A stretch of 64,000 bases of DNA from Haloplasma contractile. Its GTDB lineage: Bacteria; Bacillota_I; Bacilli_A; Haloplasmatales; Haloplasmataceae. The stretch lies in contig JAENYC010000011.1 of NCBI GenBank assembly GCA_016841945.1, positions 1 to 64,000 of the forward strand. Direction: 5' to 3'. Made by a program: the position numbers and the translations under genes. Each line of letters opens with the position of its first letter. Position 1 is the first letter of the stretch. The notes under the pieces are model-generated. The model had not been told where the DNA came from. It ran no database searches and worked only from the letters and a program-made list of their open reading frames with translations. Below, one piece after another: positions 21,685-30,508 of this stretch.

Positions 21685-23628
21685 TTACTGACTATTACTG
21701 TCATCTCTTATATTTTTAGGCAACACGCTTAAAAGATAACGTTTATGATCACTTGGGTCAACCGTTGTTCTTTTTTTGATTTTACCTAGATTAATAGAAC
21801 ATGGTTCATAAGTTTTAAATTTTGTTTTAAATTCACTTTTTCCTTTTGATAATGCCACTATTTTAACTGCGTAATCCATTGATGTACTTAATGGAATCGT
21901 CCCACTCACATAATAGGTATCATCTTTTATCTTTTGTTCAATAATCTTTGCCCTCATTTGATATAAATCATTAAAAATAATGCCTGAGTCTTTCACATGA
22001 AACATGCATTCAAATGTGTGAATGGGTTCTAATAAGGTCATCTCTGCAGCTTTTAATGCATCCATTACAGGCATTGGTGTTATTTTTTTGAAATCTCCTG
22101 GACTTGTTGATAGTTTAATCGAACGACCGCCTGTTATCATCACTTTAACATCCGTTACTTCCCAACCATACACGCCTTCTTTTAATACAGTTGGAACGAC
22201 TTCTTTCACTTCATTTTGAAAGCGTGGAAAGATAAAATCAGTTGTATAAGCGGATTGATAAATAACACCACTATTTCTTTTTAATGGTTCTACTTGCATT
22301 TCTAATGCACCAAAGAATGGTGTTTTTAAATCAATAAATCCTTTACCAATTTTAGTTGGTGTTTCCTTGTATATCACTGTAGGTTTTTCAAAAATAACAT
22401 CTATATTGAAACGATCTTTAATGATTTTTGTTAGAATCTCCATTTGAATGATGCCCATTAATTGTACATGTAATTCTTTTTCTTTCTCTTGCCAATTAAC
22501 ATTTAAATAGGGGTCTTCTTCATCTAAATAGTTAAAACACTCTACTAAAGATTTTAAATCTTTATCTTGTTTAGGATATACTCTAACAGTTAATGTCGGT
22601 TTCACCATATGAAATAAGTGATTTTTTCTATATTTTTTCCCTATCACATCACCAATCGTAGCGTATTTTAAACCTGTTATAATCCCTATTTCTCCACCTT
22701 TTAAATACTCTTTTTGAATAAGTTTTGTTCCTTCTACCTTAAATATTTTCGTTACCTTTTCATATTGATTTTTTGTGTTGTTATAGATTGTATCACGAAC
22801 TTTAATGAAACCACCGTAAAGTCTAATATGTACCGTCTTACCACCTATTGCCTCATGATTCACTTTATATATTAACCCAAGTAAATCTTTATGAATCACT
22901 GGATTTGGTAAGTAATTAACAACTGCATCTAAAACATTTTGAGTTCCAATTCCATTTAAAGCAGCGCCAAATAAAATGGGTATGCATTCAAAATGTTTTG
23001 TTTTTTGATGAACTACATCATGAACATCATCCATTGAAATTGATTTATTTTCAACATACAAATTAAATAGATGCTCATTTAATAAACAGGCAGTCTCTAA
23101 TAATCTTTTGTTATTTATCTTAACTCTAACATCCTTACAACCTTCGTTTGTCACTTCATTAACTAAAAGTCCTTTTTGATTAATTAAATTTTGTACCTCA
23201 TCGACCACTTTATTTATATTTGCTCCTATACGATCAATTTTATTAATAAATATTATTGTAGGAATTTTCTTAGACTTTAATGCTTTCCATATCACTTCGG
23301 TTTGTGACTGAACACCTTCAATACAAGAAATCACAAGTATTGCTGCATCTAATACCATTAAAGCTCGTTCTACCTCAGCTGAAAAATCTACATGCCCTGG
23401 TGTATCAATGATGTTTATCTCAGTGTTTTTATAACGAATCATGGCATTCGCACTCTTCACCGATATTCCACGACTTCTTTCAACTTCTAAATTATCTGTA
23501 TGAGCAGAGCCATAATCGACTCTTCCCTTCTTTCTAATACCTCCTGTATGATATAAAATGTTTTCTGTTAAGGTTGTTTTACCCGCATCTACATGGGCAA
23601 ATATACCTATATTTCTAATTTCTTTCAA
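21685..23628 (-). CDS. Tet(M)-like ribosomal protection GTPase
   Basis: The 647-aa translational GTPase matches the EF-G-derived ribosomal protection group in length (Tet(M) 639 aa). G1 is NIGIFAHVDAGKTTL, G2 RSRGIS, G3 DTPGHVDF, G4 NKID and G5 within CIPILFGAALNGIGTQNV. The C-terminal domain IV shows STSPGDFKKITPMPVMDALK, aligned with STPADF...VLKKA of Tet(M), the region that reaches the decoding centre. Such proteins release tetracycline from ribosomes; the exact drug here is inferred. The start is TTG, five bases after AAAGGAGG. The leader (23629-23905) has two short ORFs, a terminator and an SD-blocking hairpin, typical of inducible antibiotic-response genes. Confidence 0.85.
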   Translation of the reverse strand: MKEIRNIGIFAHVDAGKTTLTENILYHTGGIRKKGRVDYGSAHTDNLEVERSRGISVKSANAMIRYKNTEINIIDTPGHVDFSAEVERALMVLDAAILVISCIEGVQSQTEVIWKALKSKKIPTIIFINKIDRIGANINKVVDEVQNLINQKGLLVNEVTNEGCKDVRVKINNKRLLETACLLNEHLFNLYVENKSISMDDVHDVVHQKTKHFECIPILFGAALNGIGTQNVLDAVVNYLPNPVIHKDLLGLIYKVNHEAIGGKTVHIRLYGGFIKVRDTIYNNTKNQYEKVTKIFKVEGTKLIQKEYLKGGEIGIITGLKYATIGDVIGKKYRKNHLFHMVKPTLTVRVYPKQDKDLKSLVECFNYLDEEDPYLNVNWQEKEKELHVQLMGIIQMEILTKIIKDRFNIDVIFEKPTVIYKETPTKIGKGFIDLKTPFFGALEMQVEPLKRNSGVIYQSAYTTDFIFPRFQNEVKEVVPTVLKEGVYGWEVTDVKVMITGGRSIKLSTSPGDFKKITPMPVMDALKAAEMTLLEPIHTFECMFHVKDSGIIFNDLYQMRAKIIEQKIKDDTYYVSGTIPLSTSMDYAVKIVALSKGKSEFKTKFKTYEPCSINLGKIKKRTTVDPSDHKRYLLSVLPKNIRDDSNSQ

Positions 23629-23633
23629 ATTAT

Positions 23634-23654
23634 CCTCCTTTATTAGAAAGGTGG
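23634..23654 (-). promoter_or_regulatory. SD-sequestering hairpin before the Tet(M)-like gene
   Basis: On the minus strand CCACCTTT (23654-23647) pairs, with one mismatch, with the Shine-Dalgarno AAAGGAGG (23641-23634) across a five-base loop. Inside the second leader ORF, AAAGGT at 23676-23671 can instead pair with ACCTTT of the same anti-SD, extended by a TTAA/TTAA stem. The two hairpins exclude each other, a layout known from erm-type translational attenuators. Confidence 0.65.
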
Positions 23655-23655
23655 A

Positions 23656-23715
23656 TTAATTATTTAACCAACCTTTCATGTAGTTTTTATATAAAAAGTT
23701 AGTTCTTGTTTTCAT
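23656..23715 (-). CDS. Leader peptide 2 of the Tet(M)-like gene (19 aa)
   Basis: The ORF encodes MKTRTNFLYKNYMKGWLNN and has a very strong start (AAAGGAGGAG ahead of ATG). It ends 27 bases before the TTG start of the GTPase gene. Its codons for Lys-Gly-Trp form one arm of the alternative hairpin that would free the GTPase Shine-Dalgarno. It is regulatory by position; the peptide itself has no known family. Confidence 0.65.
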   Translation of the reverse strand: MKTRTNFLYKNYMKGWLNN

Positions 23716-23744
23716 ATCAAACTCCTCCTTTAAAATTAAAAATG

Positions 23745-23767
23745 CGCAAAAAGCAACTCTTTTTGCG
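23745..23767 (-). terminator. Attenuator terminator in the Tet(M)-like leader
   Basis: CGCAAAAAG / CTTTTTGCG with a five-base loop is followed on the minus strand by CATTTTTAATTTT. It lies between leader ORF 1 and leader ORF 2. A second hairpin just upstream, AAGGCACG / CGTGTCTT (about 23770-23795), may be part of the antiterminator switch. Confidence 0.7.
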
Positions 23768-23839
23768 ACATACTAAAAGACACGAACTCTTCCGTGCCTT
23801 CATTCACTATTTAGGCTTAAGTTACATGAATAAAACTAT

Positions 23840-23875
23840 TTAATTCCTCTTTACCTCATTATTAATCTTTCTCAT
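23840..23875 (-). CDS. Leader peptide 1 of the Tet(M)-like gene (11 aa)
   Basis: The ORF encodes MRKINNEVKRN with AAAGGAG eight bases before ATG, close to the transcription start. Its position upstream of the leader terminator fits a sensor ORF whose translation state decides read-through. It is too short for homology evidence. Confidence 0.55.
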   Translation of the reverse strand: MRKINNEVKRN

Positions 23876-23908
23876 ATAAAACACTCCTTTCGTGTTACAT
23901 ACAATATA

Positions 23909-23937
23909 ATTATATGTTCAAATGAATATAATATCAA
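23909..23937 (-). promoter_or_regulatory. Near-consensus promoter for the Tet(M)-like leader transcript
   Basis: Minus strand TTGATA, 17 bases, TATAAT. Transcription would begin near 23902 and give a leader of about 270 bases before the GTPase start. Confidence 0.8.
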
Positions 23938-24682: not shown

Positions 24683-24825
24683 TTTTACCTCCAAGAATCA
24701 ATGATTTACTAACATCATCTTATCATTTATGACTCTCATTATAAGGCGATTTATGTAAGTTAATGAGAACATTTTTAAAATTTTTTTTCATTCATGATAT
24801 AATTAACGAGAACAAGGAGGGAATC

Positions 24826-25587
24826 ATGAGAAAAATTAACCACTTAACCTATTTGAATCTAGATGAATGTATAAACATAGTTAAAGAAAAAAATAATGAA
24901 CAAAACCTGACAAAAGAGATGCTTGTCAGGTTGATGACAGAAAAGAATCTAATAAGGAAACAAATTGATCATGAATGGTATTTTAGTCAGTGTGATTTAA
25001 ATTATTTCATATTTAGTTTAAAAAGAAAAGACATAAAATATCTTGGCGGAATAGGCATTGATTTATCAGACCTGTCACTTAAAGGTAAGGTATTAGATAT
25101 TGGTGGAGGTGGTGAAGGAATTATCGGACAAGTAAAAAGTTCTGATACTATCGCTATTGATCCATTAAAAAGAGAATTAGAAGAAGCATCAAGTGGACCA
25201 GTTAAAATTGTGATGAACGCTAAAGATTTACTTTTTCTGGATAATACTTTTGATACCATCACATCTTTTTTTACCATGATGTACATTTCTAATATTGATC
25301 ACAAAAAAGTATTTGAAGAAATATATAGAGTATTAAAACCAAATGGTGAGTTTATATTATGGGATATCACTATACCCAAAAATGAAAGTCCTGAAATCAA
25401 TATTTTTATTTTGTTTTTAGAAATAAAATTACCTACTAAAAACTTATTAACAGGTTATGGAAATAGATATAATGATAAACACCAAGATAGTGCTTATTTT
25501 ATACAACTAGCCGAATCGATTGGATTTAGAGTAGAAAAAGAAGTAGTTATAGAAGAAAATGCATATGTACTAAAATTGATTAAGTAG
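24826..25587 (+). CDS. Class I SAM-dependent methyltransferase
   Basis: The 253-aa protein has the SAM motif I VLDIGGGGEGIIG (about residues 88-100), an acidic loop IAIDPLKRE, motif DTFDTITSFFTMMYI and RVLKPNGEFILWD, a Methyltransf_11-type core. The N-terminal 60 residues (LDECINIVKEKNNEQNLT) look helical and may bind substrate. AAGGAGG precedes the ATG at 24826; the frame opens earlier at 24763 but without a start signal. Substrate unknown. Its stop codon lies inside a terminator stem. Confidence 0.85.
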   Translation: MRKINHLTYLNLDECINIVKEKNNEQNLTKEMLVRLMTEKNLIRKQIDHEWYFSQCDLNYFIFSLKRKDIKYLGGIGIDLSDLSLKGKVLDIGGGGEGIIGQVKSSDTIAIDPLKRELEEASSGPVKIVMNAKDLLFLDNTFDTITSFFTMMYISNIDHKKVFEEIYRVLKPNGEFILWDITIPKNESPEINIFILFLEIKLPTKNLLTGYGNRYNDKHQDSAYFIQLAESIGFRVEKEVVIEENAYVLKLIK

Positions 25588-25608
25588 ATGATAAAATCTA
25601 CTTTTTTA
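25582..25608 (+). terminator. Intrinsic terminator after the methyltransferase
   Basis: AAGTAGAT / ATCTACTT with a six-base loop and a run of six T. The TAG stop codon is part of the left arm. Confidence 0.75.
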
Positions 25609-25610
25609 AT

Positions 25611-25639
25611 TTGACAAACATTGTATTATTATATATAAT
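25611..25639 (+). promoter_or_regulatory. Consensus promoter of the ABC-2 exporter operon
   Basis: TTGACA, 17 bases, TATAAT: both boxes match the sigma-A consensus exactly. It lies right after the preceding terminator and about 35 bases before the ABC ATPase start. Confidence 0.85.
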
Positions 25640-25673
25640 TATATAGTTTTCAACTTTTTTAAAGGAGGACTCT

Positions 25674-26651
25674 ATGATTGAAGTATCTGGTTTAAGTAAA
25701 TCGTTTAAAGTTGCGAAAAGAAAACCTGGTTTATTACAGGCGATGAAATCGCTATTTTACCGTCAATTCACAACTGTCCATGCATTAAAAGATATATCCT
25801 TTAACGTTAACCAAGGTGAAATTGTTGGGTATATTGGCCCAAATGGGGCTGGGAAATCAACCACTATCAAAATCATGAGTGGGATATTAATACCTGATGA
25901 TGGTAAATGTAATATCTTAGGATATACACCTTGGAAAGATAGAAAACACTATGTGAAAAACATTGGTGTTGTTTTTGGACAACGTTCCCAATTATGGTGG
26001 GATGTACCAGTGATTGATTCATTCCATTTATTGAAAGATATTTATAAGATAACTGAAACTGATTTTAAAGATAATTTAGAGTTACTAACAGAAACATTAG
26101 ATTTATCGGAAATACTAAATACACCCGTTAGACAACTTAGTTTAGGACAGAGAATGCGATGTGAGATTGGCGCTTCTTTACTACATAGTCCAAAGATTTT
26201 ATTTCTTGATGAACCGACAATAGGTCTTGATGCGGTATCTAAAATAGCGGTACGTCATTTTATTAAGACGATTAATCAAGAAAAAAAAGTGACCGTTATA
26301 TTGACGACACATGACATGAGTGATATTGAAGCACTTGCAAAACGAATCATTTTAATTGGTAAAGGACAAATATTATTAGATGGTACCTTATCAGAATTAA
26401 AAAGTAAATTCGGTACTGAAAAAGTCATTACTGCTGATTATAGTAGAATCAAAGAACCCATCGATATTCCTCATACCAAAATATTATCCTACTCTGATGA
26501 ACGTCTACAATTAGCAGTAGATACAAAACAAATTAAGGTTTCCGATGTGATTACAGCATTATCTCAAAACCTTGAGTTATATGATTTAACGGTTGATAGC
26601 CGACCAATAGAAGAAATTATTATTGATTTATATAAGGAGTACCAAATATGA
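25674..26651 (+). CDS. ABC-2 exporter ATP-binding protein (DUF990-type system)
   Basis: The 325-aa ATPase has Walker A GPNGAGKST (about residue 60), signature LSLGQRMRCE, Walker B ILFLDEP and the switch His in TTHDMSD. The first 35 residues (KRKPGLLQAMKSLFYRQF) and IGVVFGQRSQLWWDVPV are characteristic of the ATPases that work with two DUF990-type ABC-2 permeases. The next two genes are such permeases and overlap or abut, so a three-gene exporter operon is complete. Substrate is unknown. Confidence 0.92.
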   Translation: MIEVSGLSKSFKVAKRKPGLLQAMKSLFYRQFTTVHALKDISFNVNQGEIVGYIGPNGAGKSTTIKIMSGILIPDDGKCNILGYTPWKDRKHYVKNIGVVFGQRSQLWWDVPVIDSFHLLKDIYKITETDFKDNLELLTETLDLSEILNTPVRQLSLGQRMRCEIGASLLHSPKILFLDEPTIGLDAVSKIAVRHFIKTINQEKKVTVILTTHDMSDIEALAKRIILIGKGQILLDGTLSELKSKFGTEKVITADYSRIKEPIDIPHTKILSYSDERLQLAVDTKQIKVSDVITALSQNLELYDLTVDSRPIEEIIIDLYKEYQI

Positions 26652-27451
26652 GTGCTTATATATCCTTATTTAAAATGAGATTAATGCAGGGACTACAATA
26701 CCAAGTTGCTGCTTTTGCCGGCGTTTTAACGCAGTTTTTTTGGGGTTTTATGTACATAATGATTTATCAAGCATTCTATCAAAGTACAACTAATGTACAA
26801 CCCATCTCACTCCATCAACTCATTGTCGTCGTCTGGCTCCAACAAAGTTTTCTTGCACTTATCATGTTGTGGTTTAGAGACAATGAAATTATCAGTTTAA
26901 TCCTTAAAGGCGATATTGCTTATGAACTATGCAGACCAGCTGATTTATATGGGTTCTGGTATTCAAGACTCATTGCGCAACGTCTTTCTAGTGCTCTATT
27001 GCGTTTTGTTCCCATTTTACTCGTCGCATCGCTTCTACCATATCCTTATCGCTTCAGCCTTCCTGATAATGTCATTACTTTTTTACTTTTTTTAATTACT
27101 TTATTCTTAGGACTCATCATAGTGGTGGCGATATCGATGCTTATTTATATCTCAATGTTTTATACTTTATCCGGTGTTGGTTCACTTCTCATATTTGGTG
27201 TGTTAGGTGAATTTTTATCAGGACTTATAATACCTGTCCCATTAATGCCACATAGTTTAAAAATCATCGTTTATCTCCTACCGTTTAGATATTGCTCAGA
27301 TTTACCATTTAGAATATATGCTGGTAATATAGGATACCATGAAGCTATCTTAAGTATCTTTGCACAAATTTTTTGGATCATTCTTCTTTTCTTGATTGGA
27401 AAATTATGGATTAAAAAGGCATTAAAAAGAGTTGTCATTCAAGGAGGTTAA
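26648..27451 (+). CDS. ABC-2 family permease, subunit 1
   Basis: The 267-aa membrane protein has six hydrophobic segments and the family segment ELCRPADLYGFWYSRL. Its ATG overlaps the ATPase stop (ATGA). With the following gene it forms the heterodimeric channel of the exporter. The opening KMRLMQGLQYQVAAFAGVLTQFFWG is split here as KMRLMQGLQYQ and AAFAGVLTQFFWG. Confidence 0.85.
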   Translation: MSAYISLFKMRLMQGLQYQVAAFAGVLTQFFWGFMYIMIYQAFYQSTTNVQPISLHQLIVVVWLQQSFLALIMLWFRDNEIISLILKGDIAYELCRPADLYGFWYSRLIAQRLSSALLRFVPILLVASLLPYPYRFSLPDNVITFLLFLITLFLGLIIVVAISMLIYISMFYTLSGVGSLLIFGVLGEFLSGLIIPVPLMPHSLKIIVYLLPFRYCSDLPFRIYAGNIGYHEAILSIFAQIFWIILLFLIGKLWIKKALKRVVIQGG

Positions 27452-27453
27452 GT

Positions 27454-28236
27454 ATGAAATTATATTTTAAATATTTGTCGATTTTATTACGGAGCCAAAT
27501 GCAGTATCGTACATCATTCATTTTACTATCCATTGGACAATTTTTTGTTCCTTTCTCTATTTTTATTTCAATGTATTTATTATTTCAACGATTTGACCAT
27601 ATAGGTGGATGGAATTTATATGAGGTCGCCCTTTGTTATGCGATTATACATATCGGGTTTTCAGTTAGTGAATGTTTCGCAAGAGGTTTTGATGCTTTCC
27701 CATCATATGTTGTTAAGGGTGAGTTCGATAGAATCTTAGTTAGACCTCGTTCAACAGTGTTACAAGTTCTTGGCGCTAGATTTGAGTTTTCACGAATTGG
27801 AAGGTTTTCACAAAGTATTATCGTCATGATTTATGCCTTAATAAATCTATCAATTGAGTGGGATTTCATTAAAATAATAACCCTATTATTTATGATATTA
27901 AGTGGTGTTATTATATTTACTGGTGTATATATGTTAGGTGCAACCTTAAGTTTTTGGACGATTCAAGGTATTGAAGCCATCAACATTGTCACAGATGGCG
28001 GAAGAGAAATGAGTCAATATCCACTCACTATCTATAAAGATTGGGTAAAGAAATTTTTTACCTTCATAATCCCATTTGGGACTGTCAATTATCTTCCGCT
28101 CATGTATATCTTAGATAAGACAAATGGAAATGATTATTTCTATATGGTTATTCCTTTATTTGGTATGTTATTTATCATTCCTTCTTTGATGATTTGGAAA
28201 TTTGGCGTAAAGCATTATAAATCAACGGGTTCATAA
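27454..28236 (+). CDS. ABC-2 family permease, subunit 2
   Basis: This 260-aa protein has six membrane segments and the family's conserved ECFARGFDAFPSYVVKGEFD and FDRILVRPRS. The closing part IPFGTVNYLPLMYILDK is typical of DUF990-type second permeases. AAGGAGG precedes its ATG, two bases after the previous stop. It completes the exporter. Confidence 0.87.
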   Translation: MKLYFKYLSILLRSQMQYRTSFILLSIGQFFVPFSIFISMYLLFQRFDHIGGWNLYEVALCYAIIHIGFSVSECFARGFDAFPSYVVKGEFDRILVRPRSTVLQVLGARFEFSRIGRFSQSIIVMIYALINLSIEWDFIKIITLLFMILSGVIIFTGVYMLGATLSFWTIQGIEAINIVTDGGREMSQYPLTIYKDWVKKFFTFIIPFGTVNYLPLMYILDKTNGNDYFYMVIPLFGMLFIIPSLMIWKFGVKHYKSTGS

Positions 28237-28237
28237 T

Positions 28238-28266
28238 TTGACTAAATGGTTTGTGCTTGCTATAAT
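28238..28266 (+). promoter_or_regulatory. Promoter of the lipoprotein gene at 28295
   Basis: TTGACT, 17 bases, TATAAT, starting directly after the preceding permease stop codon. Confidence 0.75.
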
Positions 28267-28294
28267 TGATTGACAAGATAAATGAGGTGAAAAA

Positions 28295-29026
28295 ATGATG
28301 AAAAAATATATTTTAATTTTGTTATTAATAATAACTACTTTCCTTATTACAGCCTGTGGTAATAAGTCAACATTTGATAAGATTCATAATAATATGATAA
28401 AATCATATAACTATCAAGTCAAAGTTGATATCGATTCTACCATCAATAGTAATAAACGCCTGTCAACATCTACATTGTATTATGATTTTGATAATGAAAA
28501 TATTGGTAATATAAAAATGATAATTGATGATGATGATACTTATTTTCAAATAGATAGAGAAAATGACTCATTTATGTATTACCAAATAAGTACTACCTGG
28601 TATAAACGCTCCTATTATGTCACTTCTGCACCTAATATTATAGGAACAAAGATAGACGCCAACGATTTTGCATTTTTAAATCATAATGACACAGAATACA
28701 CGTTAATTGATGAAACAGATACCCTAAAAACCTATGAATTCATAGTTAAACTTGATAATTATTTTGCTAGAGATTTTCTAGGTGTTACGAATCTTACCGC
28801 AGAAGAACAAACAGAATTACTAAGTGATTTTAAATATATTGTGACCATAGACTTAAAATCTCAATTAATTACTAAAATAGAAATGGATATGAAAGACCTT
28901 ATGGTACAATATATGGAACTTATTGGAGATAGTACCATTATAGAAAATTATCTCGTAACAATAGAATTTTCAAAATATAATGAAGTTGATGTTGAAATTC
29001 CTGAAGAAGCATTAAATGCAAGTTAA
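28295..29026 (+). CDS. Predicted lipoprotein
   Basis: The 243-aa protein has a signal peptide and lipobox LITAC (Cys about residue 22), then a mature part rich in Asp/Thr/Tyr with alternating strands such as LYYDFDNENIGNIKMIIDDD and KYIVTIDLKSQLITKIEMD. This beta-rich layout resembles LolA/LppX-like or DUF-type lipoproteins, but no family can be named. It has its own promoter and terminator. It should sit on the outer face of the membrane. Confidence 0.75.
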   Translation: MMKKYILILLLIITTFLITACGNKSTFDKIHNNMIKSYNYQVKVDIDSTINSNKRLSTSTLYYDFDNENIGNIKMIIDDDDTYFQIDRENDSFMYYQISTTWYKRSYYVTSAPNIIGTKIDANDFAFLNHNDTEYTLIDETDTLKTYEFIVKLDNYFARDFLGVTNLTAEEQTELLSDFKYIVTIDLKSQLITKIEMDMKDLMVQYMELIGDSTIIENYLVTIEFSKYNEVDVEIPEEALNAS

Positions 29027-29031
29027 ATATT

Positions 29032-29064
29032 AAAAACGCTATAAAAGATTATAGCGTTTTTTTT
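29032..29064 (+). terminator. Intrinsic terminator after the lipoprotein gene
   Basis: AAAACGCTATAA / TTATAGCGTTTT with a four-base loop, followed by further T. The region 29065-29155 before the convergent MATE gene holds nothing else visible. Confidence 0.9.
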
Positions 29065-29155
29065 AACTAGTTCTGATTCTAAATTAGTAATCCTAATAAA
29101 GAATGATTCTAGTTGTTGATAATATTATATTGAATTTATGATAATTTATACCTCT

Positions 29156-30508
29156 TTATGTTAAATTTATTAACCATTTTTTTCGTTTATATAATGCCAT
29201 ACTAACAAATGCATTTAATATTCTCGTTGATTCTACCGCAAGAATAAGTATTATGATATTAAAATGCAGAAGATAACCACAGATTAAGGCAACCGGTACT
29301 TTAACTAACCACATAAAGAGTGAATCTAAACACATGACTTCAATAACTCTACCACCACTTCTTAAGACAAAGAAAGGGATTCTAGTTAACATCAAGATTG
29401 GTGCAATCATTCCTTGTATTAGGACGGCATAAGTGATAAGTAACTTTGTTTCAGGTTCTATATTATAAAATAGTGGCACAATAAACGCTAAAACACTTAA
29501 AATAACAGCGATGACTAATCCCATCATAACGGCATAGCCCAGTAGATAATCAGCATTTTTCTCAGCTTCTTCTAGTTCATTATTGCCTAGTTTTGAACCA
29601 ATAAAAATGCTCGTGGCTGTTCCCATACCACTGGCAAGGATAAAGACTACTTGCCTTATCATGTCAGAAATGTTGACAACCGTAATTGCACTCGTTCCTA
29701 ATTGACTATATGTTTTAAATATAATGATTAAAGATAAAGTAAAAAAGATTTCATTTATAAACAGTGGAAATACGCGTAAAAAAGTTCTAAATGTTAAACG
29801 AAGATCAATTTTTAAATAGCTAAAGACATTGGTTTTAAATGGATAATCGTTCAAAACAAATATGACTAGATAGATAATCAACTCTATCATCCTAGCAATT
29901 ACTGTACCAATGGCTGCTCCTTTTACACCTAATTCAGGGAAAATCCAAATACCATATATTAAAAAGAAGTTTAGTATAGAATTAGTAATCATTCCTATAC
30001 CACTTGCCACCATCGGTATATAAGTTAACTTTAATGGTCTAAAAGTAAAAGCAAAAGCTGTTGAAATCGATAATGGTAAAAAACTCCAAATGGCTATTTT
30101 TAAATATCGTATGCCATAATCGAAAGCTTCGGTATTATTATCTAAAAATACACCTACAATTTCTTTTGCATATAATAAACCTATCAGAAAAAAAATGACA
30201 GTTACCATGAATGGAAACACTAATTTAATTCCAAACATTTTCTTTAATTCGTCTGTCTTCTTTTGTCCATAAAATTGAGCAGTAAATATAGCTGCACCTG
30301 TACATATGGATGCAATGACGGGATAGAATAATTTATAATATTGATTGGCTACTGCAACACCAGCTATTTCTGGTTCACCTAATTGTCCCACCATTATATT
30401 GTCTAAAAAATTGATAAAATTCTGAATAAAAAACTGAATAATAATCGGAATAACAATGATAAATAGTTGTTTGTAAAACATTTTATCTGCGATATACTTT
30501 TTATACAT
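29156..30508 (-). CDS. MATE family multidrug efflux protein
   Basis: The 450-aa membrane protein has twelve hydrophobic helices in two halves. It shows typical MATE segments: NFLDNIMVGQLGEPEIAGVA near residue 35, FYGQKK after TM2, and GTATSIFIGSKLGNNE in the second half. It is expected to export cationic drugs with Na+ or H+. GTGAGG precedes the ATG. The gene is single and divergent from the OFA transporter. Confidence 0.93.
   Translation of the reverse strand: MYKKYIADKMFYKQLFIIVIPIIIQFFIQNFINFLDNIMVGQLGEPEIAGVAVANQYYKLFYPVIASICTGAAIFTAQFYGQKKTDELKKMFGIKLVFPFMVTVIFFLIGLLYAKEIVGVFLDNNTEAFDYGIRYLKIAIWSFLPLSISTAFAFTFRPLKLTYIPMVASGIGMITNSILNFFLIYGIWIFPELGVKGAAIGTVIARMIELIIYLVIFVLNDYPFKTNVFSYLKIDLRLTFRTFLRVFPLFINEIFFTLSLIIIFKTYSQLGTSAITVVNISDMIRQVVFILASGMGTATSIFIGSKLGNNELEEAEKNADYLLGYAVMMGLVIAVILSVLAFIVPLFYNIEPETKLLITYAVLIQGMIAPILMLTRIPFFVLRSGGRVIEVMCLDSLFMWLVKVPVALICGYLLHFNIIILILAVESTRILNAFVSMALYKRKKWLINLT

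Follow-up and report, generated by a model that had tools for sequence, protein, structure and literature searches.

Among resistance genes under leader control, several systems resemble the element analysed here, the leader of a divergent ribosomal-protection-type GTPase gene in a 64,000-nucleotide stretch of Haloplasma contractile (contig JAENYC010000011.1, positions 1 to 64,000; hereafter the window). Tn916 tet(M) is listed as transcription-attenuated and Bacteroides tetQ as translation-attenuated (PMC5418344); both exemplify leader control of a ribosomal protection gene, as in Haloplasma, but each is listed with one layer, whereas the Haloplasma leader carries a terminator and an erm-like switch. 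Both types of attenuation operate within one leader in Bacillus subtilis tlrB (yxjB), where NusG pausing is required, an overlapping antiterminator was not identified, and the ribosome on a single 9-residue RYR leader peptide blocks both elements (PMC6851288). Two leader peptides precede ermA (ermAL1, ermAL2) and ermB (PMC8274638), and msrD in the mefA/msrD operon is under two leader peptides, mefAL and msrDL (PMC10314930). The Haloplasma leader shares with ermA and mefA/msrD the placement of two leader peptides in series on one resistance gene; however, ermA is discussed in terms of translational or mRNA-stability control and msrD in terms of transcriptional control at both peptides, whereas the Haloplasma proposal assigns one peptide to each level. 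Our analysis indicates that the Haloplasma leader is probably an erm-type translational attenuator located behind an intrinsic terminator.

The elements of the leader can be read from the sequence, and the switch between its states is predicted by folding only. The promoter, two short upstream open reading frames (uORF1 and uORF2), terminator and trap for the Shine-Dalgarno (SD) sequence named in a first-pass annotation of the window are all present on the minus strand, as judged by sequence and folding:

23909..23937, minus strand: sigma-A-type promoter TTGATA-17-TATAAT (TTGATA 23937-23932, 17 nt, TATAAT 23914-23909)
23840..23890, minus strand: uORF1, MRKINNEVKRN, 11 codons (23875-23840), with SD AAAGGAG at 23890-23884
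23776..23801, minus strand: 11-bp hairpin just 5' of the terminator, folding probability 1.00 in all modelled states
23732..23767, minus strand: intrinsic terminator, 9-bp stem CGCAAAAAG/CUUUUUGCG (23767-23745) with U-rich tail CATTTTTAATTTT
23656..23731, minus strand: uORF2, MKTRTNFLYKNYMKGWLNN, 19 codons (23715-23656), with SD AAAGGAGG at 23731-23724
23691..23704, minus strand: segment 1, AACUAACUUUUUAU, in uORF2 codons 4-9, with a 14-bp pairing to segment 2
23664..23679, minus strand: segment 2, AUGAAAGGUUGGUUAA, containing AAAGGU, in uORF2 codons 13-18, partner of segment 1 in the closed state and of segment 3 in the open state
23646..23659, minus strand: segment 3, the anti-SD, UUAAUCCACCUUUC, overlapping the uORF2 stop
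23632..23641, minus strand: segment 4, the GTPase SD, AAAGGAGGAU, pairing with segment 3
21685..23628, minus strand: divergent ribosomal-protection-type GTPase, 647 aa, with a TTG start at 23628

We examined the translational half of the leader by placing a ribosome on each codon in turn, deleting the RNA it would cover and refolding the remainder. In the unoccupied leader, segments 1:2 and 3:4 were paired with probabilities of 0.99 and 0.97, and the accessibility of the GTPase SD was about 0.22 (0.21-0.22), the anti-SD core CCACCTTT (23654-23647) lying opposite the SD AAAGGAGG (23641-23634). A ribosome at uORF2 codons 2-8 shifted the fold to 2:3 (0.98-0.99) and raised SD accessibility to 0.92-0.97, whereas at codons 10-15 pairing 3:4 was retained (0.78-0.98) and accessibility stayed at 0.21-0.28. 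These are the alternative states of an erm-type attenuator, 1:2 plus 3:4 with the SD closed versus 2:3 with the SD open, and all the erm-type features that were tested appear in the sequence or in the model: a leader reading frame with its SD, a closed 1:2/3:4 ground state, and a change to 2:3 with a ribosome on segment 1. The annotation had described the anti-SD/SD hairpin and the alternative pairing of AAAGGT, both of which we find; it overlooked the 14-bp stem of the minimum-energy fold (23704-23691 : 23679-23666), which locks the AAAGGU segment to segment 1 and keeps it off the anti-SD in the predicted ground state. Its idea of a translational switch driven by ribosome position is thus supported by refolding at each uORF2 codon, in a four-segment form more complete than the one claimed.

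The closest match to this architecture is ermCL-ermC of pE194, with which the Haloplasma leader shares a 19-codon leader reading frame with a strong SD, the 1:2/3:4 versus 2:3 states, and a similar change in accessibility in the model (by the same procedure, SD 0.39 to 0.65 at codons 9-10 for the ermC control and 0.34 to 0.65 for the GTPase leader). However, segment 1 lies early in Haloplasma uORF2, so that a stall at codons 2-8 is required. In addition, the two leader peptides are unrelated, the Haloplasma switch is preceded by a terminator, and its gene product is a GTPase rather than a methyltransferase. We propose that, without stress, a fraction of the transcripts from the promoter at 23937 would stop at 23745, and that in readthrough transcripts 1:2 and 3:4 would pair and conceal the GTPase start site. 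Segments 1 and 2 are made before 3 and 4, so that 1:2 would be kinetically favoured, and a ribosome moving through the last uORF2 codons would leave 3:4 closed. A ribosome-targeting drug, or other causes of slow translation, would hold a ribosome on uORF2 codons 2-8 and cover segment 1, whereupon 2:3 would pair, the SD would be exposed and a protective GTPase could be made. Macrolides and ketolides arrest ribosomes at the motif Lys/Arg-X-Lys/Arg (PMC8298421). Codons 1-4 of uORF2 encode MKTR, which is compatible with this motif, and a stall there would fall within the predicted open range; as a macrolide/ketolide stall site it is a weak lead, because the motif is frequent by chance. The inducing drug, the stall codon, the termination event itself and any influence of uORF1 on it are inferred in this scheme.

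The predicted switch is seldom reached by chance. When uORF2 and the anti-SD were dinucleotide-shuffled with the SD kept (n = 1000), its amplitude of 0.73 was equalled in 1 of the 1000 shuffles, and in none were both states equally clean. A screen of 464 kb of the Haloplasma genome covered 227 SD-bearing genes, 7 of which have an SD-bearing uORF close enough to the gene start; the GTPase leader ranked first with the largest predicted switch. The second-largest in this screen, a TTG-started 16-codon uORF (LLHASYLPFLFVYYLL) before a deformylase-like reading frame (L101:17647-17734), may be a chance occurrence. The switch was unaffected by temperature between 20 and 37 C, and the ground state was closed with the Turner 2004, Turner 1999 and Langdon energy sets. 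The leader as a whole also departs from its shuffled versions: two short reading frames with seven-base SD matches occurred at a frequency of 0.0002 in 5000 dinucleotide shuffles, the folding energy gave z = -4.07, and one terminator-like site was found against 0.1 expected. An improbable alternative holds that the terminator serves only the upstream gene on the same strand (24694-23945), about 178 nt past whose stop codon it lies, and that the pairings arose by chance in an A+T-rich leader (27% G+C) lacking conservation in homologs. Apart from the 0.1% of shuffles that reach the switch, this account is opposed by the near-consensus promoter (11 of 12 matches) located between that gene's stop and the terminator. 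No other good promoter-like site was found on the minus strand from the end of the upstream gene to the GTPase start codon, and the RNA is expected to begin at about 23902.

Several observations weigh against the attenuator interpretation. With the Andronescu energy set, and with the region upstream of uORF2 included, the SD was largely open in the ground state (0.73), although it was closed (0.27) when that region was left out. In addition, 9% of synonymous uORF2 recodings gave an equally good switch, so that much of the pairing is dictated by the peptide sequence and only modestly exceeds what that sequence permits. The leader is shared by none of the known homologs, and its pairings therefore have no covariation support. 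Finally, a ribosome at the last uORF2 codon or at the stop covers the anti-SD and frees the SD (0.97-0.98, and 0.98 at the stop itself), so that coupled re-initiation could leak. Translational coupling or re-initiation has been proposed for tet(L). In Haloplasma, where uORF2, a short reading frame with its own SD, ends 27 nt before the GTPase start codon, ribosomes finishing uORF2 might likewise open the trap themselves and make stalling unnecessary. We consider this doubtful, since coupling alone gives no reason for the 14-bp 1:2 stem or for the alternative pairing 2:3, and since a ribosome at the uORF2 stop abuts the SD, so that only that same ribosome could restart.

Compared with the translational attenuator, the transcriptional layer is the weaker half of the proposal. 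As in the transcription attenuators of the Tn916 tet(M) and ermK class, an intrinsic terminator follows a leader reading frame and separates the promoter from the gene, and it looks real. The annotation had also proposed a transcriptional switch driven by ribosome position, and this part did not show in the model: when folding was repeated for each uORF1 ribosome position, the terminator hardly depended on that position, its probability being 0.97-1.00 at nearly all of them and lowest (0.60) at a single position in a transcript ending at the hairpin. About 72 nt separate the uORF1 stop from the terminator stem, and uORF2 begins 3' of it; this gap rules out direct blocking of the terminator by a uORF1 ribosome. 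A uORF1-driven antiterminator was considered, and ribosome position on uORF1 hardly alters the terminator; a long-range pairing between uORF1 and the 3' arm of the terminator was rejected because it arises only after the polymerase has passed the U-tract. The 11-bp hairpin just upstream is a possible pause hairpin, and we assign it no role.

These results bear on a full two-step switch, in which a stall on uORF1 would avert termination and a stall on uORF2 would then open the SD, both being needed. Such a switch is not demonstrated; computation gives good support to its translational step, and we regard the complete version as possible but unlikely. Consistent with it, both uORFs have strong SDs with the terminator in between, a stall at uORF1 codons 3-10 rearranges upstream pairing (b:c 0.7-0.9), and tlrB joins both attenuations while, like the Haloplasma leader, having no clear overlapping antiterminator (PMC6851288). 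In contrast to tlrB, however, the two Haloplasma uORFs flank the terminator and neither is able to touch it directly, so that tlrB-like blocking is excluded, and no single stalled leader ribosome relieves both elements. The terminator is almost insensitive to uORF1 in the model; any link between the two might run through kinetic folding or polymerase pausing, by analogy with the NusG pausing of tlrB. One could imagine two leader peptides sensing translation stress in series, the first acting on termination through pausing or folding kinetics that equilibrium folding does not reveal, the second on SD access, which we rate as improbable; within this scenario, the domain IV loop of the GTPase and the MKTR leader hint at a non-tetracycline drug. 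The first-pass annotation called the combination of both attenuations in one leader unusual, which is fair, but tlrB is a direct precedent (PMC6851288), and unprecedented would be wrong.

Control of a terminator by a uORF did appear in the same model elsewhere in the gene family. Searching about 860 genomes yielded only five other homologs above the cut-offs. Two homologs, L012 and L013, belong to another family of the same class and are 37-38% identical to the Haloplasma GTPase. In both, a single uORF, a terminator and an SD trap precede the GTPase gene (upstream of 1473 in L012, on the reverse strand in L013). With a ribosome early on the uORF, the probability of the terminator, otherwise above 0.9, fell to about 0, a change matched in 0.014 and 0 of shuffles, respectively; the method is thus able to reveal such control, and these homologs speak for the two-step switch. 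In their readthrough transcripts the gene SD has an accessibility of about 0.3, being hidden by a stem that closes around the terminator. Comparison of the two SD traps by eye revealed one compensatory pair, in which A-U is replaced by C-G, and a single C to U change at which pairing is retained. These leaders resemble that of Haloplasma in placing a uORF, a terminator and an SD trap before a homologous GTPase, but they have one uORF and a terminator clearly switchable in the model, and their sequence and layout are unrelated. Conservation of the Haloplasma leader in homologs, which the annotation had named as a check, is therefore confined to an analogous combination of terminator and SD trap; that this combination seems to recur within the gene family on unrelated sequence is suggestive only.

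Other homologs have different upstream regions. In the closest, L009, from the same bacterial family and 42% identical, the leader is short and simple; L010/L011 and a Paraclostridium plasmid copy sit close behind an upstream coding frame; and two Paenibacillus copies showed no comparable leader in the upstream regions compared. In a genome of the same genus, the gene was not present and the surroundings were not syntenic. Scans of genome contigs and viral contigs with the single GTPase protein gave zero matches, and contig scans with an alignment instead retrieved mostly EF-G and distant proteins. An Rfam search of the leader returned nothing at gathering thresholds, with only chance-level matches (E up to 1).

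By its sequence, the protein is an EF-G-like GTPase and belongs to the ribosomal protection superfamily. Its Pfam domains GTP_EFTU, EFG_III, EFG_IV and EFG_C follow the full-length EF-G-like order, and residues 4-608 align to the Tet(M) structure 3j25. The annotation's description as Tet(M)-like is loose: the GTPase scores below every NCBIfam tetracycline cut-off shown (tet_protect 552 bits, cut-off 775; Tet(M) 321, cut-off 1420), and in domain IV it has Lys505-Leu506-Ser507 instead of the Ser-Pro-Val loop, which we take to be Ser508-Pro509-Val510 of Tet(M) once the offset of the alignment is allowed for. The scores and the Lys-Leu-Ser loop together mean that tetracycline resistance should not be assumed, and the drug specificity of the GTPase may differ from that of Tet(M). 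The residues at this loop position are different again in L009, L012 and L013, and TetB(P) is about 38% identical to the Haloplasma protein.

If the attenuator is real, it would extend erm-style four-segment attenuation to a GTPase of the ribosomal protection superfamily in low-G+C Bacilli, and would imply that terminator and SD-trap layers were independently reassembled before members of this GTPase family. It would also offer a handle for identifying the drug to which this divergent GTPase responds.

The same genome encodes a second ribosomal-protection-like GTPase (L002, G000:C4:31823-33634), 34% identical to the first, whose 420-nt upstream region, inspected by eye, has no comparable leader. 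Near the GTPase gene, positions 24763-30508 of the window encode a SAM methyltransferase-like reading frame, an ABC exporter set and a MATE-type efflux-like protein; unlike the GTPase region, the ABC part matches relatives at 70-72% DNA identity.
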